A stretch of DNA of 25,222 nucleotides from a virus. The notes beneath the pieces are model-generated. The model was given only the letters and a program-made list of their open reading frames with translations. It had not been told where the DNA came from and did no database searches. The stretch spans positions 1 to 25,222 of IMG/VR virus record IMGVR_UViG_3300022707_001072. The stretch is one strand, 5' to 3'. This document shows, piece by piece, positions 6,144-25,111 of this stretch (positions within the stretch are counted from its first letter, which is position 1; every line of letters starts with the position of its first letter). The position numbers and the translations under genes are program-made.

Positions 6144-6224
6144 ATGCCTAGACATACATTAACAAAGTTTACAAAGAAGAAGTCTTCAAAGGTTAAGGTA
6201 AAAAGGCCAAAAAGAAGGAAATGA
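6144..6224 (+). CDS. Lys/Arg-rich micro-protein (26 aa)
   Basis: ATG 6144 opens a 26-codon frame that ends in TGA 6222-6224, overlapping the tail chaperone start by ATGA. It starts MPRHTLTKFTKKK and ends KRPKRRK. About half of the residues are Lys or Arg, with no acidic residue. It could bind nucleic acid or be a short leader that couples translation into the chaperone gene. The ATGA junction, used by many genes here, is the main evidence that it is translated. Confidence 0.5.
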   Translation: MPRHTLTKFTKKKSSKVKVKRPKRRK

Positions 6225-6835
6225 GATTACCATTCGGATTTGAACTGATCAGGCCCAAGCCTAAGACGGCGCTACACCCCGATTACAAGACGCTGGTGGA
6301 GCTTGCCTTTGAAATTGAAGGTATAAGCTACTATGCTTTTAAAAACTCAACAGACATGCCCCCAAAGCGTCATGAGAAGATGAACCAATTTATAAAGGAG
6401 TTGGACATGCGGATTAATGCTAAGGACTTGGTGGAGGATATGGACCTGATAATGAAATGTGGAAACAAAGGGGACTTAGTATCTATTGTACAAATAGCAT
6501 CGTCGGTAAAAAACAATGTATCATTATATATTGAGACAGACACTTATTATAGGTTGTTCACTTGCGGGTATTTCACACTGGAGCCATTAGAAGATTTAAC
6601 AGATTATGATTTTGATTATAATATACCAAAGATTGAAGCTTTTAAAGCTATGCCTCCGGGGGATTTTTTTTTCTTAAAACACTTGAATCAGTATCTACCG
6701 CAAATGAATATCTCCTCGCAGGATTTCCAAACTTTTTCAAAGTTGACAAAAAGAAACAAGCTTTACAGGGAAAAAGTAAGATCAGACGTTACGAAAAGTC
6801 TATCAAAGATTGGGAACGGATCTGGTGGACAGTAG
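6221..6835 (+). CDS. Putative tail assembly chaperone, zero-frame product (gpG-like)
   Basis: This 204-residue acidic and helical protein is encoded two short frames upstream of the tape measure. In many siphoviruses this position belongs to the tail assembly chaperone, which binds the tape measure during tail-tube growth. The call rests on position, size and the overlapping -1 frame described separately, not on a sequence motif. The zero-frame stop is TAG 6833-6835, after a Gly/Ser-rich end (GNGSGGQ). The start is fixed by the ATGA overlap with the basic micro-protein gene. Confidence 0.65.
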   Translation: MRLPFGFELIRPKPKTALHPDYKTLVELAFEIEGISYYAFKNSTDMPPKRHEKMNQFIKELDMRINAKDLVEDMDLIMKCGNKGDLVSIVQIASSVKNNVSLYIETDTYYRLFTCGYFTLEPLEDLTDYDFDYNIPKIEAFKAMPPGDFFFLKHLNQYLPQMNISSQDFQTFSKLTKRNKLYREKVRSDVTKSLSKIGNGSGGQ

Positions 6836-6957
6836 CACAGTTTGACCCAATCAAAGAAAGGGAACTTAGCAGATATTCGGTGAATAATTTTTATCTTTAC
6901 AGGGAACAGTTAGAAAATGAAGCAAAAAGAAGGGAGTCAGCAAGCAAAAATAAATGA
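6221..6957 (+). CDS. Predicted -1 frameshift fusion of the tail assembly chaperone (gpGT-like)
   Basis: A -1 shift at the T9 run (6664-6672) would move ribosomes into a frame open from just after the TAA at 6643-6645 to TGA 6955-6957, giving about 245 residues. The added part reads as real protein (for example DWERIWWTVAQFDPIKEREL) and continues 120 bases past the zero-frame stop. It has no good ATG of its own near its beginning. Making two proteins that share an N-terminus just before the tape measure gene is a well-known siphovirus device (lambda G/GT). The exact slip position is inferred. Confidence 0.65.
6664..6673 (+). other. Slippery sequence for -1 frameshifting (T9C)
   Basis: Nine T followed by C, read in the zero frame as GAT TTT TTT TTC. 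The heptamers T-TTT-TTT and T-TTT-TTC both fit the X-XXY-YYZ rule for tandem tRNA slippage by -1. A run of nine T can also cause transcriptional slippage. I could not see an obvious downstream stem-loop, and there is a G5 run just upstream. Confidence 0.6.
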
Positions 6958-7135
6958 TCATTATATAGGATTAACATACGATGATATGTTAGGTTTTATA
7001 GCGTTTAAGGATAAAAAACAACATGGAATGAAATACTATATAACTTCTATGATTGAATGTCCAGTTCTAATGAAGATTGTTGCCGAGGACAGTGATATGT
7101 TCCATTCGTACGATAAAGACGGAAATGATTTATGA
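6917..7135 (+). CDS. Hypothetical protein (72 aa)
   Basis: ATG 6917 opens a frame that overlaps the frameshift product by 41 bases. A later in-frame Met (MLGFIAF, near 6983) would avoid this overlap. The protein is mixed alpha/beta with MKYYITSMIECPVLMKI in the middle and an acidic end. It sits between the tail chaperone and the tape measure. No family is recognised. Confidence 0.5.
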   Translation: MKQKEGSQQAKINDHYIGLTYDDMLGFIAFKDKKQHGMKYYITSMIECPVLMKIVAEDSDMFHSYDKDGNDL

Positions 7136-7236
7136 AATTGAATAAAAACGTGGGCTTAATTGCCAGGACATGGCCGCAAGGCAGGAACAACCCCAAAGCC
7201 CCGGAGAATGGCCACCAACATACGCATCGTTTATGA
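7132..7236 (+). CDS. Possible 34-residue ORF overlapping the tape measure start
   Basis: An ATGA overlap with the previous gene starts this frame (MKLNKNVGLIARTW), and it ends inside the tape measure N-terminus. The peptide is rich in Pro, Asn and His. The frame may be a coupling leader, or it may show that the tape measure once started here and lost frame by a small indel. The composition is not convincing for a folded protein. Confidence 0.2.
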   Translation: MKLNKNVGLIARTWPQGRNNPKAPENGHQHTHRL

Positions 7237-9388
7237 TGTCAAGAAAAAGCAGATAGATGCTGCTGAGAAATCACTAAAAAAACTTGACAAGACCACCGGC
7301 CTCACTAACAAAGAGGTAACCAGGCTCAACAAGAAATTCAACAAACAGCAAAAAGAGCTTGCCCAAAGCACCAAAGGGTTCAATAAAATGAACAGTTCGA
7401 TGGGGTCTTTTGTCAAGCTGGCCTCTGCTGCATTTGCTATTAACTTACTCAAGAACTTTGGCAGTGAATTGATAAGGCTGTCAGATATACAAGCAAAATC
7501 TGAGGCTAAACTTTTGACAGCCCTCAAAGGAAGAGAAGATGTTCAAAGACGTTTGATGGCACAGGCTAGGCAACTTCAAAAGATAACCCTGTTTGGAGAT
7601 GAGGCTACAATAGAAGCACAGGCGTTTCTTGCCTCATTAGGACTTAATGAGGATGCAATCAGAAGGCTTACTCCATTGGTGCAGGATCTTGCTACAAAAA
7701 TGGGAGGAGATTTACGTAGTGCGGCCGATCTTATTGCCAAATCAGTAGGAAGTTCCACCAATGCGTTATCCAGGTACGGTATAGAGATTAAAGGAGCTGT
7801 GGGGAGCACAGAAAGACTTGAAAGTGCTATAAACGCATTGAACCAACAAGTTGGAGGGCAGTCAGTGGCAGCGGCAAAAGCAGGGGCAGGGCAATTCACG
7901 ATACTTGGCAATACTATTGGAGATATTAAAGAAGAGATGGGGGCAATGCTGATAGAGGGACTGAATCCTATGATAAGTGCCTTTAATGAATTTTTATCAA
8001 TATCCCTATCTGAAGAACTAGAAAAAGAAAAAGCTGGTATAAATGCACTGGTAGGGGCTATCACAGACGCCAATATAAAACAAGAAGAAAGGAACACTTT
8101 GATCGGGATATTACAACAAGAATATTCTAGTTTTTTAGAAAACCTTGATGCCGAGACAGTAAGTAATGAACAACTAAGGGACAGGTTAAAAGAGGTAAAT
8201 GCACAACTAACAATAAAAATCCAACAACAGCTATTAGAAGAGAAAGTCGGCAAACTCTTAAAGGAGCAAGCAAAAGCACAATTAGAAATTGCCGCACAGC
8301 AAAGAAGGACACAACAGGAAGGAGGGCGGATTGCAGAGGTAGAGTTTGGACCATCTGGACTATCCCCTAAAATAATTACCGTTGCTGATGAAGCTACTGG
8401 AGCGATAAATCGACTAAGGAGGAGAATCAATGAAATAAACAAAGAGCTTGCAGATACAAACGAACTGTTTAAAGAGGCTTTCGGTGGTGGCGGAGCAGGT
8501 GGGGCAGGCGGAGCGGGCGGTGGCGGAGCAGGCGGTAACGGCGGTAACAAAGACACAGTAGATGCAATGACGGAAAGCCTAGAGGCGGCAGCCGAAGCCA
8601 TAAACAAATTATTCGGTGACCCAGAAGAAGACGAATTTAACATTGCAGAAATAGCGGCCACAATAGAAGATGAAAGAGTAGACATAGCTATATCCGGTGC
8701 AGAAAGGAGAAAACAAATCAGGGAGGAAGAATTACAAAGTGAGCGTGACGCAGTTGCCATAAGGCAGGAATTGGCAAATGTCCAATTAAATATGGCGGCT
8801 AATGTTGTTGGTGCTTTCTCAAAGTTAGCAAAGGACGGATCAGAGGCCCAAGTGGCTTTACTAGTGTTAGAAAAACTCATTGCAGTAGGAAGGGTATTGA
8901 CAAATCTTGCCGCAGAGAACTCGTTAATTGCATTAACAGCAGCACAAATTAATCTAATTCCTCCATTTGTTGGAGGAGCTCTTTATTTAGCTACACATTT
9001 ACCATTGGCATCCGCAAGGGCAACAGGTAGTCTAGTACAAATAGCAGCCCAGGCAATTCCTGAATTAGCTGGAACTTTCCATGAAGGTGGAGAAATCACA
9101 GGTCTTCTAAGACACGGCGACGTATCAATAACTGCCCAAGAAGGTGAATTTATGATTAAAACAAAAGCTGTAGACCATTATGGCCTTCAGGCTATGGAGA
9201 GCATAAACAACATGGAATTTAACACCGTGGGATTTTCTGATGATAATATCGTAGCGGCAATAGAGGATATGAACCGAAGCTTTGCAAATCGGCCGGTAAA
9301 TATGATAAAATTTGATGAGAGAGGCTTTAGAAGAAGTTTAATAAAAGGCATGAACGAAACAATATATGTAACAAACAGATATGTCTAA
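7208..9388 (+). CDS. Tape measure protein
   Basis: ATG 7208 (MATNIRIVYDVKKKQIDAAE) gives 726 residues; a TTG at 7160 would add 16. The tape measure sets tail length and is ejected with DNA. Residues 1-70 are a charged coiled coil, followed by Ala-rich helices and a region (FGDEATIEAQAFLASLGL onward) like the tape-measure core of siphoviruses. Residues about 426-448 are an almost pure Gly/Ala/Asn linker. Hydrophobic helices lie near 547-622. The end carries HEGGEITGLLRHGD and GEFMIKTKAVDHYG, a familiar C-terminal pattern of phage tail proteins. If about 1.5 angstrom per residue applies, the tail would be near 110 nm. Confidence 0.88.
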   Translation: MATNIRIVYDVKKKQIDAAEKSLKKLDKTTGLTNKEVTRLNKKFNKQQKELAQSTKGFNKMNSSMGSFVKLASAAFAINLLKNFGSELIRLSDIQAKSEAKLLTALKGREDVQRRLMAQARQLQKITLFGDEATIEAQAFLASLGLNEDAIRRLTPLVQDLATKMGGDLRSAADLIAKSVGSSTNALSRYGIEIKGAVGSTERLESAINALNQQVGGQSVAAAKAGAGQFTILGNTIGDIKEEMGAMLIEGLNPMISAFNEFLSISLSEELEKEKAGINALVGAITDANIKQEERNTLIGILQQEYSSFLENLDAETVSNEQLRDRLKEVNAQLTIKIQQQLLEEKVGKLLKEQAKAQLEIAAQQRRTQQEGGRIAEVEFGPSGLSPKIITVADEATGAINRLRRRINEINKELADTNELFKEAFGGGGAGGAGGAGGGGAGGNGGNKDTVDAMTESLEAAAEAINKLFGDPEEDEFNIAEIAATIEDERVDIAISGAERRKQIREEELQSERDAVAIRQELANVQLNMAANVVGAFSKLAKDGSEAQVALLVLEKLIAVGRVLTNLAAENSLIALTAAQINLIPPFVGGALYLATHLPLASARATGSLVQIAAQAIPELAGTFHEGGEITGLLRHGDVSITAQEGEFMIKTKAVDHYGLQAMESINNMEFNTVGFSDDNIVAAIEDMNRSFANRPVNMIKFDERGFRRSLIKGMNETIYVTNRYV

Positions 9389-11597
9389 TATCAAATATAA
9401 AGTATTTCTGGACAATGATACCAAAGGGAAACAACAAATAACAGAACCTGTTGGCATGAAGGATTTACAAATAAGGCTTGAAAGGAATATTGAGGATGGG
9501 TTTTTCGGCTTAATACAACTATTTGCCAAACAGAAATTAGGTTTCTTTGGGGATGCAAAAGACTATCTCCAGAGTGTGCTTGATACCGACGGTATCGATG
9601 GGGAGGCGAGGATAGATATAGACATTTCAGATGATGGGGGAGTTACTTTTAGCGATTATTTTGATGGGGTGGTAGACTTCGATGGAATAGAAAGGGTAGA
9701 TGACGAGAAGGACGGACTGATAATAAATGCAAGGATAAATGAAAGCGGATTTTACCAGAAGCTAAAAAGCCGCATGGATGTAAAAGTCGATTTATTCCAG
9801 AACAAAGACTTTTCAGGAGGCACTAGGGAGACGATTAATAAGCACACGGTTACTACCCATAACCAAAGCATACGCAAAAAATGGAAAGGACTGAAGAACG
9901 ATGGAGCTATCGCAGCGAGTTTGTCCATGCTTGCCGCTGGAGATATATTTTACTGTACCCCTGACTTTCCCGATGTTACTGTCGATGAACTTGACAAAAC
10001 ATCCGGTAGCGGAGCGTTATTAAATGATGTTGTCTCTACCAATGCACTATATGAAGTACAGGATTTTACAGCATCAGGTAAGGCACATACCTTCAAAATT
10101 GGCAGGGCAAGCTCCATAAATGAGTTTGGGGTTGCTATATCAGGTGGGGCGGTAAATATAACTTCTGTCACAATACGATGGTTTTATCAGGTAAACAGCG
10201 ATACGGCGGTAGGGATTGGGGCAACTACATCAGCTACCCCAAATGCAGCGACTTATGATACAGGAGGCTTACCGTTGACTGTTTCTGATTTTGATCTTAC
10301 ATTAAAAAGTGGCGATATATTCAGGATGTATCTGCAAATCAATATTACTACCGCCGCAGATACCACAAAAACGGTGACTGTTAACTTTAAAGACCAGGGT
10401 GTTACAGCATTGTTGGGTGTTGACATTGAAATAACTGTTGACACTACCTTCCCAACTTTTGATATTGACACCTACCTGGTACATGAGGCAGGCAATAAGA
10501 TTACTAACTCTATTACAGAGGTAAATGGCAGTTTCAAATCTAATTATCTGGGAACAAAAATATCAGCTATTCAGACTTACACCGCTAATGGATGTGGGGC
10601 TTTTTGTGCTATAACATCAGGGCTGAACTTGCGTGGTAATGCTGTGACAGATAAGCCAATGTCGATGAGTTTTAAAGAATACTTTGATGGTCTAAATGCA
10701 ATATGGAACCTAGGCCTGGACATTGAAAGCACCCCTCTAGTAAGGATAGAAGAAAAGAAGTTCTTTTTTGGCACTGGCTCACCATCTGTAACCTTACTAG
10801 GGGTCAACGGACTCTCCAGGACACTAGATACTAGCATTATAGATAATGCCGTAAAGGTGGGGTATTCAAAATGGAAAAGTGAGACTTTTGATTCTGCAGA
10901 TGATTTTGCCACTATTAGGGAATATGCCAACCGATTAAAAACAGTAGGGAAAAAGAAAAATATTCTAAGTGGCCTTATTGCCGGCACTTATGCTATTGAA
11001 AATACCAGGCGAATGAAATTTAATACTAAAGACGGGAAGCTAGATGACGACGCATTCATCATCGCATTGAAACGCACCGTCGACGGAAGCAGCAACCCTA
11101 ACGCATTAGGAACCCCAGAAAAGGATGAAAACTTCAGCAGCATTAGCGGTCTATTGTTCAGCGATGAGTCATATAATCTAAGGCTGTCAGCAGGGCGTAA
11201 TTTCTTAAGATGGGGCAATATGGTGAGTGCGGGGTTATTGGAATATGCCGGCACCGAATGGTTGATACAATCGGGAGAGGGGAATTTAGATTTGATATCC
11301 ATCCAAGATGGCGATAGTTGTGAGGGCGATTTTAATGGTATGTATTTCGATGAAGGTGGAAATATAAATTGGGACTATGCCGCACTTGATGAGCAGAAGC
11401 CATTATTTAAGCCCTTTCGATGGAAGTTCGATATACCTTTGCCGAAAGCTGACTTTGATACCATCGTAGCTGACAAAAGAAACACTATTGAAGTAGAAAC
11501 ATTCGGTGGGGTGTTAAAAGAGATGTTTATATGGTCACTTAAATATATAGCCGAAAGGCCATTGGCAGAATTTGAATGTATAGAAGCAAATATATGA
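9381..11597 (+). CDS. Large tail protein, probable tail tip/baseplate component
   Basis: This 738-residue protein starts MSNIKYKVFLDNDTKG and follows the tape measure with an 8-base overlap. The N-terminal 190 residues are acidic and beta-rich (KDLQIRLERNIEDGFFGLIQ). A Thr/Val-rich middle of about 190-360 looks like an inserted beta domain. The C-terminal half has mixed alpha/beta segments (NAVKVGYSKWKSETFD). Position after the tape measure and size fit a distal tail or hub protein that links the tube to host-binding proteins. The lack of a named motif keeps the exact part uncertain. Confidence 0.68.
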   Translation: MSNIKYKVFLDNDTKGKQQITEPVGMKDLQIRLERNIEDGFFGLIQLFAKQKLGFFGDAKDYLQSVLDTDGIDGEARIDIDISDDGGVTFSDYFDGVVDFDGIERVDDEKDGLIINARINESGFYQKLKSRMDVKVDLFQNKDFSGGTRETINKHTVTTHNQSIRKKWKGLKNDGAIAASLSMLAAGDIFYCTPDFPDVTVDELDKTSGSGALLNDVVSTNALYEVQDFTASGKAHTFKIGRASSINEFGVAISGGAVNITSVTIRWFYQVNSDTAVGIGATTSATPNAATYDTGGLPLTVSDFDLTLKSGDIFRMYLQINITTAADTTKTVTVNFKDQGVTALLGVDIEITVDTTFPTFDIDTYLVHEAGNKITNSITEVNGSFKSNYLGTKISAIQTYTANGCGAFCAITSGLNLRGNAVTDKPMSMSFKEYFDGLNAIWNLGLDIESTPLVRIEEKKFFFGTGSPSVTLLGVNGLSRTLDTSIIDNAVKVGYSKWKSETFDSADDFATIREYANRLKTVGKKKNILSGLIAGTYAIENTRRMKFNTKDGKLDDDAFIIALKRTVDGSSNPNALGTPEKDENFSSISGLLFSDESYNLRLSAGRNFLRWGNMVSAGLLEYAGTEWLIQSGEGNLDLISIQDGDSCEGDFNGMYFDEGGNINWDYAALDEQKPLFKPFRWKFDIPLPKADFDTIVADKRNTIEVETFGGVLKEMFIWSLKYIAERPLAEFECIEANI

Positions 11598-11924: not shown

Positions 11925-14606
11925 ATGGCGATAACTTTTACAGAGTTAAGACAATTTGATGATGGTACTGCAAATCTTTTGATGGATGCTATCACAAAAT
12001 ACAACGGATTGATATTCTTTAGTCTTTTGAACAAAGAAGTATGGACATATAACCCTATAACTGGAAGATTTTTACTAAACTCCACCTTCGCCACTAACAG
12101 GGTTACCGATTTTCTGGTGATTCCTGCTACAACAAATTCGAACATTACAGAAAATACCCTCTGGGCAGTTACGGCAGGAACAGACGGCAAGCTGTTCTTG
12201 TACGATAATGATGGGACATGGACAGAGAAAGTAGATTCGGGTGACGTAACGTGTTACACTATGGCGTTTTATAAAGATAATATATATTATGGCACAGAGG
12301 GGGGCGAGGTATTTAAATACGACGGAACTACCCAAACGGTATCTTTACCATCTGCTACAACAGGTGGTGATGATATCGAATCAATAGTATCATTTGATGG
12401 TACTCTTTACGCCGGATCGTCTAACACTACCGACTGCGTTATATATAAATTTGATGGCACAACATGGTCACAAGAGCAAGCAATCGCCATATCAGGGATT
12501 AATCATATTTTTAAATTTGCCCCTTATAGGGCCCTTTTATATTTTGGGACAGATGCCACTAGCAGTCAATCGAAATTATGGGAAAGGAGTACCGCTGGGG
12601 TATGGACAGATATAAAAACATTTACTGCCAGCAATGCAGTAGGCTCTTTGCAAGAATTTAAAGATCATCTCTATATAACATTTGGGGCAGCAGGAACCGA
12701 TAACGACCAGATACAACGCTATAATGGAAGTAATTTTATTCAAGTTAAAGCTGCCGATACAGAAGTAACAACATACGGCAGAAATGCTATCCATGTCGAT
12801 GACAATAGATTATATGTAGGCAGCAGAGACACTACCGGCGATATTGCCAAGCTATGGGAACTATGCGCTGAATGTTCTGATGATGTTGTAATATCTGATG
12901 CTTCGCCGTTTGGATGGAGTGTAGGAAGTTGTGATATTACCCCCGCTTTAGACGATGTGGAAGAAGGCTGCTATTGTGAGGTAGCTAATTATTCTGATAA
13001 ATTTAAGGTACAAATACAACACATTGCTACCATAGCCCCCATTTTAAGAATACTAAATAACGATAACGGAGACCTGATAGCAGAGTATACATTTGTGAGT
13101 ATTATTGGGAATATATGGGAAGTAGAAATATCGCTGTTGGTTATTCCAAACCCTATCACAATAGTAAATTTTGAGATTTATAGTCAATCTGGAGGAGATG
13201 CGGGGAGTGACGATACTTGGGCGAAAAAATCTTCTGGTACTGCTGCCGATATAAGAGGTGTGACAGTTGATGGCATAAAAACAATTATCTTAGGCTCTCC
13301 GGATACTAATAATAGTGCTACACATTACATAGCAAGATCAACAAATAGCGGAGATACATTTACGGACATTACAGCAACAGTCACAGCCCTTGTGGCTAGT
13401 GCCAATTGGGGTGTAGGAAAATTTATTCGCTTTGGAAGTAATAGTCATTACCTAGTATTACGCAGGACAGGGAATGTATCAAAAAACGTAATAATTACAA
13501 CCGATAATTTAGACAGTGCAGCAGGAGGAACTGCCAACTTTGGCGGGCAGGGTCCTCTAATAATCAACGTTGACCCTACAGATTCCGATAATGTACTAAT
13601 ATCATCTACTTCTGGCGCTGTAGGCGCCCTCGAAAAAAGCACAGATGGGGCCTCTACCTTTTCGGCTACTACAGCCATTCCTACGGGGGCTGCCGCTGGA
13701 AATGCAGTTCTGCCAAATGGGAACTTTCTTGCAGGAAATAACGCAAGTGATATTTACCTATCTACCGATGGAGGGTCAACATGGAATGCTCAAACTGTTC
13801 CCGCTGTGTGGACATCTGGGAACAAAGAATTGACTGCAATGCATACTTTTAATAATGATAAGATAATAGCATGTGGTGACGCAGGACATATTCTATTAAG
13901 TACAGATGGCGGCGTAAACTGGCTACAAGTAGATGGGGACATTACTGTGAAAGATTTAAAAGATATAACTTTTATAGATGATAATATTGGGTGGGCATGT
14001 GGTGAAACGGGAACAGTGCTGCGTAGTACCGATGGGGGGGCTTCTTGGGCGACGATGACCACAGGGACAACGGCTAATCTATTAGGAATTGCATCTAATG
14101 GCAATGTATCTGGCTATATAGTCGCTGCCACCGGGGCGAGTGGGGAACTTATTGTTCTACAAGGGGAAAATAAATTGCTTGCAACATCTGAATGTATAAG
14201 TGTAAGGGATAGTCATAAGTCTGGGTTGCTTATAAAATATACCAATGATACCAACTTTACAGGGTTCGATTATACCAATGGGTTGGTAAACCAGATCAGG
14301 ATCATTGCCCACTTCTGGCAGCCAATAAACCCACAAACAAAGAGTATTTACGAACAGTCAACAGGGGATATTACCACTTTAAAATCAACGGTAAAAAAGG
14401 GATTTATTTTAGAGACTGATTACATGCCTGAATATATGCAAAGAAAATTATCGCTTATCTTTGCCCATACAGGGATAGAAATAAATGGAGTGTCTTATTA
14501 TGGCGATGAAGCAGGAATAGAATTTGAACCAATCAAAGGCTTCCGCCAAGCTAAAGGCAGAATAACACTCAAGCAAAGGACATTGTTAAATGAAAACATA
14601 ATATGA
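11925..14606 (+). CDS. Double beta-propeller tail protein, possible receptor binding
   Basis: The protein has 893 residues. Residues about 20-310 contain repeated strands of the kelch/propeller type with recurring WTYNP, YKFDGTTW, YKDNIYYG, FDGTLYAG and DDNRLYVGS segments. Residues about 440-740 form a second propeller of BNR/Asp-box type, with boxes at 472 (STNSGDTF), 572 (STDGASTF), 613 (STDGGSTW), 659 (STDGGVNW) and 701 (STDGGASW), the last four 41-46 residues apart. The final 100 residues look like an attachment domain. Propellers in phage tails often bind or cleave host glycans. No clear catalytic sialidase set is seen. It overlaps the portal start by 4 bases. Confidence 0.75.
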   Translation: MAITFTELRQFDDGTANLLMDAITKYNGLIFFSLLNKEVWTYNPITGRFLLNSTFATNRVTDFLVIPATTNSNITENTLWAVTAGTDGKLFLYDNDGTWTEKVDSGDVTCYTMAFYKDNIYYGTEGGEVFKYDGTTQTVSLPSATTGGDDIESIVSFDGTLYAGSSNTTDCVIYKFDGTTWSQEQAIAISGINHIFKFAPYRALLYFGTDATSSQSKLWERSTAGVWTDIKTFTASNAVGSLQEFKDHLYITFGAAGTDNDQIQRYNGSNFIQVKAADTEVTTYGRNAIHVDDNRLYVGSRDTTGDIAKLWELCAECSDDVVISDASPFGWSVGSCDITPALDDVEEGCYCEVANYSDKFKVQIQHIATIAPILRILNNDNGDLIAEYTFVSIIGNIWEVEISLLVIPNPITIVNFEIYSQSGGDAGSDDTWAKKSSGTAADIRGVTVDGIKTIILGSPDTNNSATHYIARSTNSGDTFTDITATVTALVASANWGVGKFIRFGSNSHYLVLRRTGNVSKNVIITTDNLDSAAGGTANFGGQGPLIINVDPTDSDNVLISSTSGAVGALEKSTDGASTFSATTAIPTGAAAGNAVLPNGNFLAGNNASDIYLSTDGGSTWNAQTVPAVWTSGNKELTAMHTFNNDKIIACGDAGHILLSTDGGVNWLQVDGDITVKDLKDITFIDDNIGWACGETGTVLRSTDGGASWATMTTGTTANLLGIASNGNVSGYIVAATGASGELIVLQGENKLLATSECISVRDSHKSGLLIKYTNDTNFTGFDYTNGLVNQIRIIAHFWQPINPQTKSIYEQSTGDITTLKSTVKKGFILETDYMPEYMQRKLSLIFAHTGIEINGVSYYGDEAGIEFEPIKGFRQAKGRITLKQRTLLNENII

Positions 14607-16594
14607 TGTTTCAAGGATTTGAAGATAAAGGATTCCAGGCTTATTTAATTGGCATTGGGAAAAAGGAAATACACCATAAGTATTACCACGACACCGTTCG
14701 TCATGCCGAAGAAATGGGTGTACACATGGAGGGCGACAAACCAGTTAGGCTTTTGACAATAACAAGACCCAATGAAACCGCAGAGCAAACAGCATATAGG
14801 CTTGCAATCTACGAGCCTACAACGCTAGGGCTAGCACAAAAAATGATAAACACCATTAATCGCATATTCAATGAAAGGTTTTTCCAGATGAAATTTCCTG
14901 AAATGACAAAGACGGTTCCTGAAGATGAAACACTCGCCGAGTATACCAGGGAAAATTATCCGGGTCACATGGATATCATGGGCTACATTAAAGAAACTTT
15001 TACGACCAAAGATTTTTCAGATCCTAATGCTGTAATATATGTACGGCCAAAGGATTTTGATGTAGAGGAAACCGAATTTTTAGAGCCTATTGCCGTAATT
15101 TATACTTCTTGGCAAGTAGCAGATTTTAGCCCAGAGGTTTATTATACTATTCTGTTAGGACCAGAAACAATAAAAATCATCACCGGCGATGAGGTCAGGG
15201 TATATGTAAAAAACCTAATCGATGGTAACGAGATATGGAAGTTAGTGCCGGAGCTTTCCTTTGAGAACAAAATCGGCAAGCCACCGGTATTTAGGCTCGG
15301 GGGAGTGATAAAGGGGTTGGAAGATCCTTACTGGTTTATGTCTTTTGTTGGAGGAGTAGCCCCGGCATGGAATAGGGTGGTAACCCTTACCAGCGATCTT
15401 GATGTTGGCTATGTTAGTTATATGTTCAACCAAAGATGGGAATATGTAATTGAATGTGATGAGTGCCAGGGAGGGTTTGTAGCCCAAAGCACAGACGGGG
15501 AATTGGACGATACTTTCGGGGAAACCCTCGACAGAAAGTGCAGTAAATGCAATGGAACTGGAGAGATAGGAAGAAGCTCATTGGGAGTATTCAGAATCCG
15601 TCATGATGCAATAAACCCCGATAAAGCGTTACCCATCCCACCAGCGGGGGAGATCGAAAAAGATACCAGCATAGTTGCCAAAGTTGAGGAAAGAATAGAA
15701 AAGCTGGAGCTGGCGGGGCTATCATCGGTAAACATGGAAATCCTTAACAATACCCCTGCCCCGGAATCAGGAGTGGCAAAGGCCATAGATAGGCAGGATT
15801 TAGATGCTTTTTTAATGCGATACCAGATGCATGTATTTGAATGGGTGTTACCAAATCTCATGCTATATATTTCATGGTGGAGATATGGGGCATTGTTTGA
15901 TTGGAACGAGGATAAAATTAAAGAAATACAGCCAAAGATAATTCCTGTAAGTGGGGTTGATTTTACAATGTTTAGTATAAAGTTCCTTATGGATGAATAC
16001 AAAGAAGCATCACAGGCTTCGGTATCTTCGAACCATAAAAGGCAACTGGAAGAAGAGATTGTAAACACCCGATTTGCAGGGAAAGAAGAGGAAAGAAAGA
16101 AAAACCTTGCCATAGTTCAGCTGCAGCCATTCCCCGGCAAGACCGAAGATGACCTATTAACTTTACAAAACCTATCATGTGTAGAAGATTGGATGGTTTG
16201 CAAATCATTGTTTATTGATGAATTTGTCCAGAAGGCGATTGAAGAAAATGAAAAGTTTTTAGAGATGAAACACAAGGAGCAACGAGATATAATAGATAAG
16301 ATGGCTGTAGAAAAATCCCCTGAACTAGAGGTGATTGCTACTGATGTTGGCGATAATTTGGCAGGGGCAACTCAACAAGTATCAGACCAACAGCTTGAGG
16401 CACAAGCGTCATTACGGGGTTCTGTGGGTGGGGTGCAGGGTATCTTATCTATACAGGCAGCGGTAGCATCTGGGACATCGGGGTTTGATTCAGCGGTTGA
16501 AGTGTTAGTGGAAATATTTGGATTTGATAAAGAAAAAGCCATTAAGATATTAGGGAAACCCAAGGAACAAAATGCCACAAAAGAGGAATTATAA
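14603..16594 (+). CDS. Portal protein with a zinc-finger-like insert
   Basis: This 663-residue protein would form the dodecameric ring at the head vertex through which DNA passes. Evidence is its size, location just before a MuF-like gene, helical C-terminal half, and the PESGVAKAIDRQDLDAFL segment (about residue 390), which resembles the conserved S/E-G-x-A-K helix of portals. Unusually, residues 285-291 (CDECQGG) and 313-320 (CSKCNGTG) form two CxxCxG motifs 24 residues apart, like the DnaJ zinc domain. The start is set by an ATGA overlap. The last 20 or so bases overlap the next gene. Confidence 0.8.
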   Translation: MMFQGFEDKGFQAYLIGIGKKEIHHKYYHDTVRHAEEMGVHMEGDKPVRLLTITRPNETAEQTAYRLAIYEPTTLGLAQKMINTINRIFNERFFQMKFPEMTKTVPEDETLAEYTRENYPGHMDIMGYIKETFTTKDFSDPNAVIYVRPKDFDVEETEFLEPIAVIYTSWQVADFSPEVYYTILLGPETIKIITGDEVRVYVKNLIDGNEIWKLVPELSFENKIGKPPVFRLGGVIKGLEDPYWFMSFVGGVAPAWNRVVTLTSDLDVGYVSYMFNQRWEYVIECDECQGGFVAQSTDGELDDTFGETLDRKCSKCNGTGEIGRSSLGVFRIRHDAINPDKALPIPPAGEIEKDTSIVAKVEERIEKLELAGLSSVNMEILNNTPAPESGVAKAIDRQDLDAFLMRYQMHVFEWVLPNLMLYISWWRYGALFDWNEDKIKEIQPKIIPVSGVDFTMFSIKFLMDEYKEASQASVSSNHKRQLEEEIVNTRFAGKEEERKKNLAIVQLQPFPGKTEDDLLTLQNLSCVEDWMVCKSLFIDEFVQKAIEENEKFLEMKHKEQRDIIDKMAVEKSPELEVIATDVGDNLAGATQQVSDQQLEAQASLRGSVGGVQGILSIQAAVASGTSGFDSAVEVLVEIFGFDKEKAIKILGKPKEQNATKEEL

Positions 16595-20755: not shown

Positions 20756-21279
20756 TGGGAAATTGTAGACCACAAATACCGAATTATGTTTCTCCTGATT
20801 GCTCGATAGAATCAGGCAGGCTGACGGGGCTAGCGTTTATCCATAAGGATATCCATACCAACATCTATAATGACCCCTCAAATGCAACACTATGGGTTGA
20901 TGGCAATTATGCTGCTGACCTCCATGTATTTCAGGAGGTGCGGGGGTCTTATACCGCAACGGCTACAGAAGTGCCAGGATTGGGAAGCCAGGCGAACAGG
21001 GTGATCAACTCGGCACGGGTAATCCAGGCAATGGTGCAAGGGATAAAGAACAACGAGGGGTTCTGGGACAACATTTGCCTATCAAATGAATACCGTGTTG
21101 CTGCCGTGGTTGGTGGAGCCTATGACCTTCTATTTATCAACAACAGGGACGTTCAAATATGGGCATTTCCTGCAGTTGAAGATGGGCTCGATACAGAGGC
21201 TCTTTGGAATGTTACTATTAATTGGCAAGAGAAAAACAACATGAGGACATCAAATGTCCCCACTGGTATATTTAATTGA
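20755..21279 (+). CDS. Putative virion structural protein after the capsid gene
   Basis: This 174-residue, beta-rich protein starts MGNCRPQIPNYVSPDCSIES. Its middle part (SQANRVINSARVIQAMVQGI) and end (ALWNVTINWQEKNNMRTSNV) look like packed structural sequence without enzymatic motifs. Coupling to the capsid gene by TAATG implies co-production. A head-tail connector, tail tube or decoration protein would all fit, and the window otherwise lacks an obvious tail tube gene. Which of these it is cannot be told from sequence alone. Confidence 0.6.
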   Translation: MGNCRPQIPNYVSPDCSIESGRLTGLAFIHKDIHTNIYNDPSNATLWVDGNYAADLHVFQEVRGSYTATATEVPGLGSQANRVINSARVIQAMVQGIKNNEGFWDNICLSNEYRVAAVVGGAYDLLFINNRDVQIWAFPAVEDGLDTEALWNVTINWQEKNNMRTSNVPTGIFN

Positions 21280-21317
21280 GAAGGGCAATAAATGCCTTAG
21301 TTGACTTGGAGATAAAA

Positions 21318-21896
21318 TTGAGCATCTTGATTTTGACCGTTCCTGAACGGAAGGGGAAAATGGATGCCATTATTGAAGACCTCAATTTTCAGATCGGGAC
21401 GCTACCTGTTGAATTTCTTTGGCTTGGTGACAACAAGCGAAGGACGGTAGGAGAAAAAAGAAACGATCTTCACTATATAGCCAATGGCACATGGCTTCAA
21501 TTTTTAGACGATGACGACCTTTTACATTCCGAATCTATTAAAAGGGAATTAGAAGTCATTAGAGACAACCCTGAAAAAAAGGTAATATGTTTTCGTGGCA
21601 CCCAAAACCACGGAGGGTCCAAAGATTTAGAGTTCAGATTTGACAGGCGCACTAGTGCAGTTTCCAGTGTAAAAAGCGATGGGCAAGGAGGAAGGTTCAG
21701 GGCAATGATACCGAACCATCTTTGTATATGGCGCAAGGATGCCATCAAAGAAAAATTCCAACACAAAAACCTTTCGGAAGATCATAGATGGGCAACAGAA
21801 ATGCTCAAGCATTACACCGTTGAGGATCAGGTCATTATTGATGATTATATCTATCACTATGAGTTCGATAAAAATCTTTCCCAATGCCGAAGGTAA
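21318..21896 (+). CDS. GT-A type glycosyltransferase-like protein
   Basis: The frame is open from 21276 (TTG overlapping the previous stop), but TTG 21318 follows GGAG at a good distance and gives MSILILTVPERKGK, a typical first beta-strand of the GT-A (family 2-like) fold. This makes 192 residues. A run of four Asp (residues 64-67, FLDDDDLLH) fits the metal-binding DxD site, and EDHRW near residue 155 fits the later catalytic acid region. It starts the sugar-transfer cluster directly after structural genes. Its 3' end overlaps the next gene by 13 bases. Confidence 0.7.
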   Translation: MSILILTVPERKGKMDAIIEDLNFQIGTLPVEFLWLGDNKRRTVGEKRNDLHYIANGTWLQFLDDDDLLHSESIKRELEVIRDNPEKKVICFRGTQNHGGSKDLEFRFDRRTSAVSSVKSDGQGGRFRAMIPNHLCIWRKDAIKEKFQHKNLSEDHRWATEMLKHYTVEDQVIIDDYIYHYEFDKNLSQCRR

Positions 21897-22543
21897 ACCT
21901 TTTCAGCACCTATTTTAATTGCCATGACTCAGAGAGGCAGAAAGAGCTTGATTATTGCCACGAACAAAATAAGGCCAATCCGCTGATCGATAGTATCAAG
22001 GTCTTTTCAGAAAGGCCACACTATAATGATTTTTTTATAGAGACCCGGAAATATCCCGACGATATAAACATCCTGGCCAATGCAGATATATATTTCAACG
22101 AAACATTAAAGTATGTGCAGTTTATGAAGCAAGGGCAGGCTTTTGCAATTACACGCTGGGAGGATGTTAAAGGGAAGGTGATAAAATTTGAAGAACGCAA
22201 TAAATACAACCGACATGCCCAAGCGAAGCACAGCCAAGATGTATGGGTATTTTTAGGCGAGGCGAAAGGCATGAACGGAAATTTCTATATAGGGATACCA
22301 GGATGCGACAATAGGATAGCCTATGAGATGAGCCGCTCTTATAGGGTTTATAATCCATGTGAAACAATACAATGTATTCATAAGCATACCAGCCCCGGAA
22401 GGGATTATAACATTCCTGAAGATTCAATAGAGCGCATACCCCAACCCTGGAAATTAATTATGCCATGTAGTATTGATTCCAATGGTAGAATTATAGAACA
22501 AGTACAACAAAGACAAACGGCTTACGGGAGGAGGTCAATATGA
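21884..22543 (+). CDS. Putative glycosyltransferase-like protein
   Basis: This 219-residue protein starts MPKVNLFSTYFNCHDSERQK. It contains NADIYFNETL (about 66-75), AITRWED and HSQDVWVFLGEAK followed by GIPGCDNRIAYE. This set resembles a glycosyltransferase-like family that combines an Asn-Ala-Asp-x-x-Phe metal-binding strand with Ser-Gln-Asp and Gly-Cys-Asp-Asn motifs; that is recognition by pattern, not by alignment. Position among other sugar-transfer genes supports it. A strong Shine-Dalgarno sequence, GGGAGGAGGT, lies in its last codons. Confidence 0.55.
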   Translation: MPKVNLFSTYFNCHDSERQKELDYCHEQNKANPLIDSIKVFSERPHYNDFFIETRKYPDDINILANADIYFNETLKYVQFMKQGQAFAITRWEDVKGKVIKFEERNKYNRHAQAKHSQDVWVFLGEAKGMNGNFYIGIPGCDNRIAYEMSRSYRVYNPCETIQCIHKHTSPGRDYNIPEDSIERIPQPWKLIMPCSIDSNGRIIEQVQQRQTAYGRRSI

Positions 22544-22676
22544 AGATTTTGTAATACTAAAATAAGACTTTAAATAAAAAAAAGAAACCCCCTCAATACT
22601 CTTGCAAGTATTGCTAATAAGAGGGGGTTAGGATTCTTTTTCTAAACAAATATACGGAAAAATATATGAAGATTTT
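22538..22676 (+). repeat. Duplicated gene start flanking a terminator
   Basis: ATATGAAGATTTT occurs at 22538-22550 and again at 22664-22676, 126 bases apart. The first copy has an ATGA overlap with the preceding stop and an ideal Shine-Dalgarno site, but reads only four codons (MKIL, stop). The second copy is the start of the real gene (MKILHIG). The terminator lies between them. Confidence 0.6.
22586..22643. terminator. Strong intrinsic terminator, probably bidirectional
   Basis: A perfect 9-bp stem (AACCCCCTC, 22586-22594, with GAGGGGGTT, 22621-22629) contains an inner 6-bp stem (AATACT/AGTATT, 22595-22612). A T-rich tract (TTCTTTTTCT) follows on the plus strand and an A-run precedes it, giving a T-run for the minus strand. 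It would end or reduce transcription coming from the capsid operon. Confidence 0.8.
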
Positions 22677-23583
22677 ACATATAGGCTTGATGGTAGATGG
22701 CAAGGGGGAAGGGCTATGCAAAGCATTAAAGGATCTATCAAGCGAATATTTGGAAATCCAGCAGTCGGATCCTGAATTAATAGAGAAGGCAATGGGCTTT
22801 GATTTTGACCTGTTTTTTATGCAAGCCCAATCGGATAAAATAGGAGACTCCGATACGATACAATTATTATCACCTATCGCTAAAAGGGGATTTACTATTA
22901 ATTGGACAGGAGACATCAGGCAGACTACGCCAGCGTGGATGCTAAGGATGCCAGCCAACGTAACTGCATTCACAAACCAAAGGGATGTTAATTTCGCCCT
23001 TTCTCATGGGCGCAGGGCAGAATTTTTGCAGATAGGTATTGATGCTGGAATATTTACCAACGAAGGCGAACAAATTAATAGTAAGGATATTGTTTTTTTT
23101 GCTAATGCCTATGGAAACCAGTTTCCTCTATCGGGGTTTAGAAAGCTTGCCGCCGAGATAATGAAAACAAACTACGGAGATAAGTTTGGCCTTTATGGCA
23201 ATGGGTTCCGGAATGCAGATGGAAATTACAATGTGCAGGGTGGGGACGTGAAACATTGGCAAGGACAGGAGGCAGCCATATATAGGGGATGTAAGATCGC
23301 GGTAAGCATCTCACACTTCGATGCAGAAAGATATACCTCTGATAGATTGTTACGGATTATGGGATGCGGTGCTTTTCCTTTGGTTCATAAATATAAAGGC
23401 ATGGAAAAGGACTTTGAAATAGGAAAAGACTTGGAAGTTTTCAGGTCCTATAATGAACTTTGTGATAAGATTGATTATTGGCTGGAACAAGACAGGGATA
23501 AAATAAAGGAAAATGCCGCCAATCTTATCCGTGAAAATTATACTTATGATAGTATGGCGCAGAACATAGTAAACATGTTATGA
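22666..23583 (+). CDS. GT-B type glycosyltransferase (CgeB/Glyco_trans_1_2-like)
   Basis: The protein has 305 residues. The N-terminal part starts with the beta-strand MKILHIGLMVDGKGEGL and has DLFFMQAQSD and FTINWTGDIRQ. The C-terminal half carries DRLLRIMGCGAFPLVHKYKG and an acidic end of the Glyco_trans_1_2 type (YTSDRLLRI near 225), where conserved residues bind the nucleotide sugar. This two-domain layout fits a GT-B enzyme. The natural start seems to have been separated from its Shine-Dalgarno site by the 126-base terminator insert. No promoter match was seen between terminator and start. Confidence 0.75.
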   Translation: MKILHIGLMVDGKGEGLCKALKDLSSEYLEIQQSDPELIEKAMGFDFDLFFMQAQSDKIGDSDTIQLLSPIAKRGFTINWTGDIRQTTPAWMLRMPANVTAFTNQRDVNFALSHGRRAEFLQIGIDAGIFTNEGEQINSKDIVFFANAYGNQFPLSGFRKLAAEIMKTNYGDKFGLYGNGFRNADGNYNVQGGDVKHWQGQEAAIYRGCKIAVSISHFDAERYTSDRLLRIMGCGAFPLVHKYKGMEKDFEIGKDLEVFRSYNELCDKIDYWLEQDRDKIKENAANLIRENYTYDSMAQNIVNML

Positions 23584-24329
23584 AAACCGCCGCCTACATG
23601 CCACTACATTATGGCAAGGACTATCTAGGCTATGCCATTAAATCCATCATAGACCAGATAGATAAAATGATAATCCTTTATACTTCCAGGCCGAGTTATG
23701 GACATACAAGCGGTTCTTGCCCTGAATCAGAAGATGAACTGCGACAAATAGCAGAAGAGGCAAGCAGCGGTAAGCTTGAATGGATAAAGATCAACCACAC
23801 ACATTTGGAAGGCGACCACCGTAACCAGGCGTTTATGCATGTACATCAAGGATTTGATATCCTTGCCGCAATTGATTCGGATGAAATATGGGAACCAGAA
23901 GCGTTTGAGGTGGCTTTAAAATACGCCAGGAGTTCGGCAGCTTTCGAAATAGGGGCAAACCATCAGGGATGGTATCACTTTTGGCGATCATTCAACGAGT
24001 ATTGCAGTGATGGATTTTGCCCTATCAGGTTCCACAATTTAAAAAACATGCGTAATACCCAGGATATAAACTGCCCTAGCAAAATATATCATTTTGGCTA
24101 TGCCCAAACCAGGGTAATCACAGATTATAAATGGGCTTGCCACGGGCATCAAGACGAACTGCGGGACAACTGGTTTGATGAGATATTCTATGGCTACCAA
24201 AAAGGGATAACAAAAGGGCTTCATCCGGTAAGCTTACAAATATGGCACGAAACAATTGATTTCGACAGAGGTGATTTGCCGGAGTTAATGCACTCCCACC
24301 CATTCTTTGACCTTGATAAGATAGAATAA
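23580..24329 (+). CDS. Glycosyltransferase-like protein with DSDE motif
   Basis: This 249-residue protein is coupled to the gene before by ATGA. It starts MKTAAYMPLHYGKDYLGYAI, and residues 99-102 read DSDE in ILAAIDSDEIWEP, which fits a GT-A metal site. A histidine-rich C-terminal half (HFGYAQTR, HGHQDEL, LMHSHPFFD) could contain the acceptor site. It resembles family-2-like enzymes often seen in phage sugar clusters. The donor and acceptor cannot be inferred. Confidence 0.65.
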   Translation: MKTAAYMPLHYGKDYLGYAIKSIIDQIDKMIILYTSRPSYGHTSGSCPESEDELRQIAEEASSGKLEWIKINHTHLEGDHRNQAFMHVHQGFDILAAIDSDEIWEPEAFEVALKYARSSAAFEIGANHQGWYHFWRSFNEYCSDGFCPIRFHNLKNMRNTQDINCPSKIYHFGYAQTRVITDYKWACHGHQDELRDNWFDEIFYGYQKGITKGLHPVSLQIWHETIDFDRGDLPELMHSHPFFDLDKIE

Positions 24330-24339
24330 ACGGTCTCCA

Positions 24340-24371
24340 TTTGTATAACAATGGTAAACATTGTATCTTTG
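24340..24371 (+). promoter_or_regulatory. Strong Bacteroidota-type promoter
   Basis: TTTG at 24340-24343 and TATCTTTG at 24364-24371 with exactly 20 bases between them match TTTG-N19-21-TAnnTTTG in every defined base. The expected start of transcription is around 24376-24378, at the ATG of the RHH gene, so the mRNA would be nearly or fully leaderless. Confidence 0.75.
24348..24364. promoter_or_regulatory. Operator-like palindrome ACAATGGTAAACATTGT
   Basis: Arms ACAATG and CATTGT flank a 5-base spacer. The site lies between the -33 and -7 boxes, so a bound protein would exclude RNA polymerase. The gene directly downstream encodes an RHH regulator, which suggests autorepression. The ACAATG half-site also occurs in the palindrome at 18317-18331. 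Confidence 0.55.
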
Positions 24372-24375
24372 CAAT

Positions 24376-24522
24376 ATGAAAAGTAAAGGCAAGGTGAAAA
24401 AAGGTATGTGGTTGGATGCTGAAGTAGTAAAAAAAACAGCAGAAAGAGCCAAAAAAGAAAACCGTTCTTTTGGCAATATGGTCGAAACAATTTTGAGCGA
24501 ATATGTAGACTATAAGAAATGA
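24376..24522 (+). CDS. Ribbon-helix-helix transcription regulator (48 aa)
   Basis: ATG 24376 opens a 48-residue frame ending with an ATGA overlap to the next gene. After a basic start (MKSKGKVKKG) comes the strand MWLDAEVVKK, then a helix and the second helix SFGNMVETILSEYV, a typical RHH (Arc/MetJ) arrangement. Such small dimeric repressors bind palindromes and often control their own promoter. Its strong promoter and palindrome lie directly upstream. It shares the fold, but little sequence identity, with the minus-strand RHH protein at 17702-17857. Confidence 0.7.
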   Translation: MKSKGKVKKGMWLDAEVVKKTAERAKKENRSFGNMVETILSEYVDYKK

Positions 24523-24779
24523 CATACAAAAGGGTAGAATATAGAATTTTAATGGACAGATATGGTTCCCTGTGGGTTAACGATATATCCTATGAAACAC
24601 CTGAGCTGGCAGAAAAGGCAACGGCTAACATTAAGGATGTTAGCACCCCCTACGCCATTGTGAAAACAGAACATAAAATAGTAAAGCATTTAACAAAAAG
24701 CAGCGAGGGTGCCGACCTTTGGGTCAAAGGCATGTCCCCACCGGGATATTTTTCACGATCAGACCAATCAAAAAAATGA
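24519..24779 (+). CDS. Hypothetical protein downstream of the RHH gene (86 aa)
   Basis: The protein begins MTYKRVEYRILMDRYGSLWV. Two beta-like segments, an acidic helix region and a C-terminus rich in Ser, Gly and Pro (GMSPPGYFSRSDQ) are seen. It shares ATGA overlaps with both the RHH gene and the glycosyltransferase that follows. The tight junctions argue that it is coding. No family is recognised. A partner or regulator of the downstream enzyme would be one option. Confidence 0.55.
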   Translation: MTYKRVEYRILMDRYGSLWVNDISYETPELAEKATANIKDVSTPYAIVKTEHKIVKHLTKSSEGADLWVKGMSPPGYFSRSDQSKK

Positions 24780-25111
24780 TATCTGGCTTCTCCTACGTCC
24801 ATAACGCCCTATCGGTAGGAATCCCAATCAGGGAATCAATAAAAGCAGTACGTCCTTATGTTGATGAAATGGTGATAGTGGACGCTTCAAGCACCGATGG
24901 TACAACGGAGATGCTTTCTAAGCTACCTGAAGTTGACAGGGTAATAGATGGTGTCGAGTGGGGAGATAATGCAGGGGAGACGCTTAAAAGGCTTCATGCA
25001 ATGAACGTAGAGTGCGAAGGGGATGTGATAATCCACTTTGAGGCTGATGAGGTATTTGATGATAGATTAATAGGGGATATTTCATTATTATATCATCGGC
25101 TAAAGATTTGA
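24776..25111 (+). CDS. Truncated family-2 glycosyltransferase (N-terminal part)
   Basis: An in-frame ATG at 24719 exists, but ATG 24776 (ATGA overlap) gives MISGFSYVHNALSVGIPIRE, a typical first strand of GT2. The usual VIVDASSTDGTTEML sugar-nucleotide loop (near residues 37-51) and the FEADE metal site (Asp91) follow. The frame stops after 111 residues, while such enzymes normally exceed 200. The last 15 codons overlap an oppositely oriented reductase fragment, so the gene is cut by a rearrangement or an assembly or amplification artefact near 25080. Confidence 0.65.
   Translation: MISGFSYVHNALSVGIPIRESIKAVRPYVDEMVIVDASSTDGTTEMLSKLPEVDRVIDGVEWGDNAGETLKRLHAMNVECEGDVIIHFEADEVFDDRLIGDISLLYHRLKI

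Follow-up and report, generated by a model that had tools for sequence, protein, structure and literature searches.

A T9 homopolymer as the probable recoding site of a lambda-type G/GT tail chaperone pair in a phage lineage without a named member

In the IMG/VR record of an uncultured phage, analysed here in its entirety (25,222 bases, hereafter the window), a short reading frame upstream of the tape measure gene very probably specifies two tail assembly chaperones of the lambda type, G and GT, the longer of which would arise by recoding at a run of nine T's. Two relatives, IMGVR_UViG_3300023222_000213 (G001) and IMGVR_UViG_3300003883_000001 (G003), have this run too, in an identical codon phase, and the extension encoded in the -1 frame is conserved. 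Most translation would yield G (204 aa), and a fraction of decoding events would enter the -1 frame within the run to give GT (245 aa). If the pair acts as in lambda, both forms would coat the tape measure protein, and the T domain would serve to recruit the major tail subunit; in lambda, G attaches to the tape measure, T attaches to the tail tube subunit and the two forms have to be present in a fixed ratio (PMC5009743). The claim is that the locus works like the lambda pair, not that it is homologous to it. The device itself is known; the lineage, to which no named phage of the collection searched belongs, is new, and the T9 homopolymer is an unusual variant of the slip site. The data place the G/GT device in that lineage and provide a three-genome test of a pure T9 site. 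Ordinary ORF calling misses GT.

Reading frames and gene neighbourhood

The run is followed by a C at 6673, so that the zero frame reads GAT (6662) TTT TTT TTC. The -1 frame is open from 6646 to 6957, directly after the TAA at 6643-6645, and terminates at the TGA at 6955-6957. A slip within the run would join the first 150 residues of G to the 95 residues of T, with DFF-FLK as the predicted junction peptide and DPIKERELSRYSVNNFYLYR as a stretch of the GT peptide. A previous reading of the DNA made without database searches (the sequence-only reading) had described the T9C run and these frames, and its coordinates are correct on re-reading of the sequence. Its statement that the -1 frame has no good start of its own also stands, the first ATG, GTG or TTG being the GTG at 6880, only 25 codons ahead of the stop. 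Phage genes often overlap, and T could on that ground be thought a separate gene with its own start, to which the T9 run is incidental. However, the lack of any earlier start codon and the fact that conserved T sequence begins at the run itself make such a gene scarcely credible.

Between the last -1 stop and the zero-frame stop, the only X_XXY_YYZ heptamers in the window and in G003 are those of the T9 run, while G001 has two more downstream of the run within the allowed interval. The T9 run is thus the one slip site that all three genomes share. The +1 frame after the run closes within 2-6 codons in all three genomes (three codons in the window), and a transcript with eight U's would therefore produce only a truncated G.

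Table 1. Features of the chaperone locus and adjacent tail genes, in window coordinates
Feature	Position	Strand	Comparison or match
G, zero-frame tail assembly chaperone ORF (putative), 204 aa, stop TAG 6833-6835	6221..6835	+	homologue L007:5266-5868, 47% identity; distant homologue in G003, E 5e-25
TAA, last -1-frame stop upstream of T9; upstream limit for the shift	6643..6645	+	
T9 run (putative slip site), holding tandem sites U_UUU_UUU (6664-6670) and U_UUU_UUC (6667-6673)	6664..6672	+	L007 5715-5723 and L080 319-327 are T9 in identical phase
T extension, -1-frame portion of the predicted GT, 95 codons + TGA	6670..6957	+	51% identical in G001, 22% in G003; pN 0.22, pS 0.63 past the zero-frame stop
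Dual-coded region, zero and -1 frames both conserved	6673..6835	+	
Small ORF, 72 aa, between GT and tape measure; membership in the device not established	6917..7135	+	without credible family match
Tape measure protein, with ATG 7208 as the likely start (MATNIRIVYD, similar to MANNIRFNYE in G001), inside an ORF from TTG 7160	7208..9388	+	phrog_167 tail length tape measure, E 1.4e-8
Virion structural protein, next tail gene after the tape measure	9381..11597	+	phrog_15220, E 2e-64; weak homologue after the tape measure in G001

G precedes the tape measure gene in the window, G001 and G003, with one small ORF intervening in the window. The sequence-only reading had pointed out that lambda-like phages make these chaperones ahead of the tape measure, and the next large gene does match that family (Table 1). 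The gene order of the window (1741-25111) is unusual in that the terminase is followed by the tail genes, including the chaperone and tape measure, and only then by portal and capsid. After the capsid genes lies a long block of glycosyltransferase-like and sugar-epimerase-like genes (21276-25111; counterparts in both relatives described below, at L002 7933-16942 and L080 12610-17561), assigned from the translations by eye. A 253-aa protein encoded at 3678-4439 matches phrog_8198 (E 2e-27); most of its best hits among phages are to Synechococcus phages and Manatee Spring Caudoviricetes records.

Relatives and conservation of both frames

The comparison covers three genomes, the window and its two relatives. 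G001 was found by a capsid scan of IMG/VR (capsid 73% identical) and G003 via a portal motif (portal 44% identical). Against the window, G is 47% identical in G001 and 27% in G003, where the profile match reaches E 5e-25, and the -1 extension is 51% and 22% identical, respectively. G001 reads GAT TTT TTT TTC as in the window and its layout is ungapped from the run to nearly the end; G003 reads GGT TTT TTT TTG, again with exactly nine T's in identical codon phase, and its -1 extension can be aligned and its -1 ORF overlaps the start of the tape measure gene. Both relatives share the -1-frame layout of the window but have start-like codons further inside the extension. In G003 the G gene spans the ends of the record (L080 start, L079 end), which join in frame; the record is probably a circularly permuted complete genome.

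No relatives of G were found among named phages, and single-protein scans of IMG/VR with G, the terminase or the next tail protein returned none either. The portal motif was present in 60 stretches of genome contigs, and no relative of the tested window proteins is encoded in any of them. When 395 genomes from the phylum of a Bacteroidetes MAG were searched with a portal profile, only two weak matches were obtained; both are confined to profile positions 257-325 and seem to reflect a zinc finger. One candidate relative (L010) was rejected as a chance match. The portal itself (window 14603-16594; L002 2426-4234; L080 6594-8567) contains an internal DnaJ-like CxxCxGxG zinc-finger segment that is retained across the three genomes. 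Flavobacterium, Polaribacter and Elizabethkingia (Flavobacteriia) are the hosts of the named phages whose portals are related, and Shine-Dalgarno-like motifs are rare in the window, preceding 2 of 15 genes; a Bacteroidota host is therefore likely.

The length of the run is not in itself proof of function. In a first-order Markov copy of the window, about 1.6 runs of T9 or A9 are expected and the real window has one T9; given the encoded residues, codon usage alone produces at least nine T's with a probability of 0.34 for the window (DFFF), 0.21 for G001 and 0.05 for G003 (GFFL). Conservation of length alone was accordingly rejected as an argument, being not improbable in the window or G001. 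The open -1 frame is less easily obtained, since random synonymous rewrites of the overlap keep it open in 0.35% of cases for the window, 0.41% for G001 and 5% for G003. The similarity between the -1 peptides of the window and G001 exceeds that of 99.9% of synonymous rewrites; in the same test the -1 similarity of G003 within the overlap does not by itself reach significance. Past the zero-frame stop at 6835, where the sequence-only reading had noted that the -1 frame continues as normal protein, comparison with G001 gives pN 0.22 against pS 0.63, and the two other frames contain stops in both genomes. This shows purifying selection on the -1 frame; a per-phase substitution count for the part upstream of T9 runs across alignment gaps and was left out of the argument. 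What lies beyond chance is the combination of the place and phase of the T9 run in three genomes, the open -1 frame, the similarity of the -1 peptides and the purifying selection.

The zero frame is conserved after the run as well, with LPQ and S-x-x-D motifs in all three genomes, which argues against a broken single gene. It also bears on an assembly error in the homopolymer, with a true run of T10 or T7 and one continuous ORF. According to the sequence-only reading, either T8 or T10 would make a single frame continuous; this holds for T10, whereas T8 leads into the +1 frame and a stop after three codons, and T7, which had gone unmentioned, restores continuity too. Errors are frequent in homopolymers, and the sequence of the window comes from a metagenome, but T9 occurs in three separate records and both frames after it are conserved, including the C-terminus of the zero frame, leaving such an error extremely unlikely. 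A third reading treats the run as a contingency locus, in which replication slippage varies its length and switches between G-only and GT genotypes. Close relatives in an unrelated poly-A chaperone family do differ in this way (BF8P1 has A11 and vB_BfrS_23 has A10); against this, all three T9 genomes have exactly nine T's and every infection should require the two tail chaperones, so we consider genotype switching very unlikely.

The lambda-type G/GT pair is thus the reading that the alignments favour. The zero and -1 frames both align in G001 and G003 with the extension conserved, which is what the sequence-only reading had proposed to look for, and its comparison with lambda-like phages is borne out in that two homologues share the T9 site, the region of the zero-frame stop and the conserved extension, with a tape measure gene following. 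Neither G nor T is assigned to a known tail chaperone by any PHROG or Pfam family, and profile searching against the PDB gave nothing significant. Structure models of G and T (mean pLDDT 50 and 59) are too poor for fold comparison. Chaperones of different known phages share little sequence (PMC5009743), and a missing sequence match is for that reason weak counter-evidence.

Ribosomal or transcriptional slippage

The main route to GT has about an even chance of being a ribosomal -1 slip of tandem tRNA-Phe on U_UUU_UUU or U_UUU_UUC. Alternatively, RNA polymerase may add one U, or skip two, on the T9 run, and ordinary translation of the altered transcript would then give GT, as in Thermus dnaX and Shigella mxiE; we put this at a little short of even. 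Both kinds of slipping are probably active to some extent.

An A or T homopolymer of at least eight is present at the frame junction in all three genomes, in each case T9. In vivo, the polymerase of E. coli slips very efficiently at this length (PMC5009743); it prefers poly(T) and needs about seven T's (PMC6260861), although these figures are for E. coli and not for a Bacteroidota polymerase. Unstimulated heptamers that shift in E. coli mostly do so at only 2-10 times a background of 0.055% (PMC4066793), and no stem-loop stimulator was found after the run: no nested stem-loop stands out in the following 70 nt, fold z-scores against shuffled sequence are 0.45, -0.99 and -0.11 in the three genomes, and there is no Rfam match for a stimulatory RNA. 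Some tailed phages nevertheless shift without stimulators, T9 holds two good ribosomal heptamers and phage G/GT pairs are described as ribosomal in the review that gives the T9 figure (PMC5009743). The number of T's stays at exactly nine even though the last codon in G003 is Leu and not Phe, which favours the polymerase, but the amino acids together with the -1 frame's own Phe codon could account for the number.

Further circumstantial support for the polymerase comes from an unrelated family of Bacteroidota phage chaperones that keeps a run of A8-A11, which is in phase with the long form in some members and out of it in others. The family carries the phrog_8914 annotation in two records and matches 77 phage records; its members belong to phages of Bacteroides, Parabacteroides, Alistipes, Flavobacterium, Croceibacter and Elizabethkingia. 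Its run lies at one place, encoding VKKKI with an invariant KKK, in the gene directly before the tape measure. Among the 16 members whose run length was examined, 12 have A10; BF486P2 has A9, tant8-1 and BF8P1 have A11 and P2559S has A8. The loci are L086:11109-11816, L011:24819-25589, L087-L100 from phage records, and the genome locus L101. Where the long ORF is intact (12 members), AAA is used for each of the three Lys codons, compared with AAG at 82 of 262 other Lys codons in these genes; the joint p is about 2e-7 if the members are treated as independent, an assumption that does not fully hold.

Most A10 members encode the long form in phase, so that a slip leads to termination within a few codons, while the long form is out of phase in BF8P1 (A11), P2559S (A8) and L101 (A10 after GT). 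The BF8P1 and P2559S records, which differ in run length, have the chaperone annotated as two genes. The run looks like a dnaX-type slippage site, although ribosomal slipping on A_AAA_AAA, sequencing errors in single records or variation of run length in the DNA could also produce the pattern. This phase pattern is what slippage-tolerant expression predicts, and it raises, circumstantially, the probability that T9 works likewise. The failure to find a nested stem-loop, the nine T's and this parallel family together make transcriptional slippage likelier than was implied by the sequence-only reading, in which it appeared as a possible contribution.

It may tentatively be proposed that in long-tailed phages of Bacteroidota the chaperone ratio is set when RNA polymerase slips on a long homopolymer, T9 in the window and for the most part A10 in PHROG 8914, a transcriptional form of G/GT that would have arisen at least twice with the long form in or out of phase; this is a possibility that we regard as less probable than its negation. 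If true, tail chaperone ratios in these phages are set in transcription and not in translation. A search of one collection of open-access papers for tail chaperones together with transcriptional slippage returned general works only, and absence there is not proof of novelty.

Comparison with known systems

The likeness to lambda G/GT consists of a short ORF before the tape measure, a -1 extension without its own start, a heptameric slip site within G and conservation of both forms. There is no detectable sequence homology, and the tail genes of the window come before its head genes. The lambda slip site is GGGAAAG, whereas that of the window is a T9 homopolymer with an overlap of about 55 codons past the site.

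The PHROG 8914 chaperones have no sequence homology to G/GT of the window; comparison of GT with three chaperone-position proteins of other Bacteroidota phages by hhalign and BLAST gave no match. They resemble the T9 locus in being encoded by a single gene of similar size before the tape measure, with a long internal homopolymer, in phages of Bacteroidota hosts. They differ in having a run of A8-A11, in most cases A10, with which the long form is usually in phase, such that slipping would give the short form.

Thermus thermophilus dnaX and Shigella mxiE likewise have two products per gene at a long A or T run (nine in dnaX), and ribosomal stimulators are unnecessary in this arrangement. Slippage is demonstrated in those genes and is the candidate mechanism at the T9 run of the window, where, unlike in dnaX and mxiE, the genome-encoded frame gives the short form.
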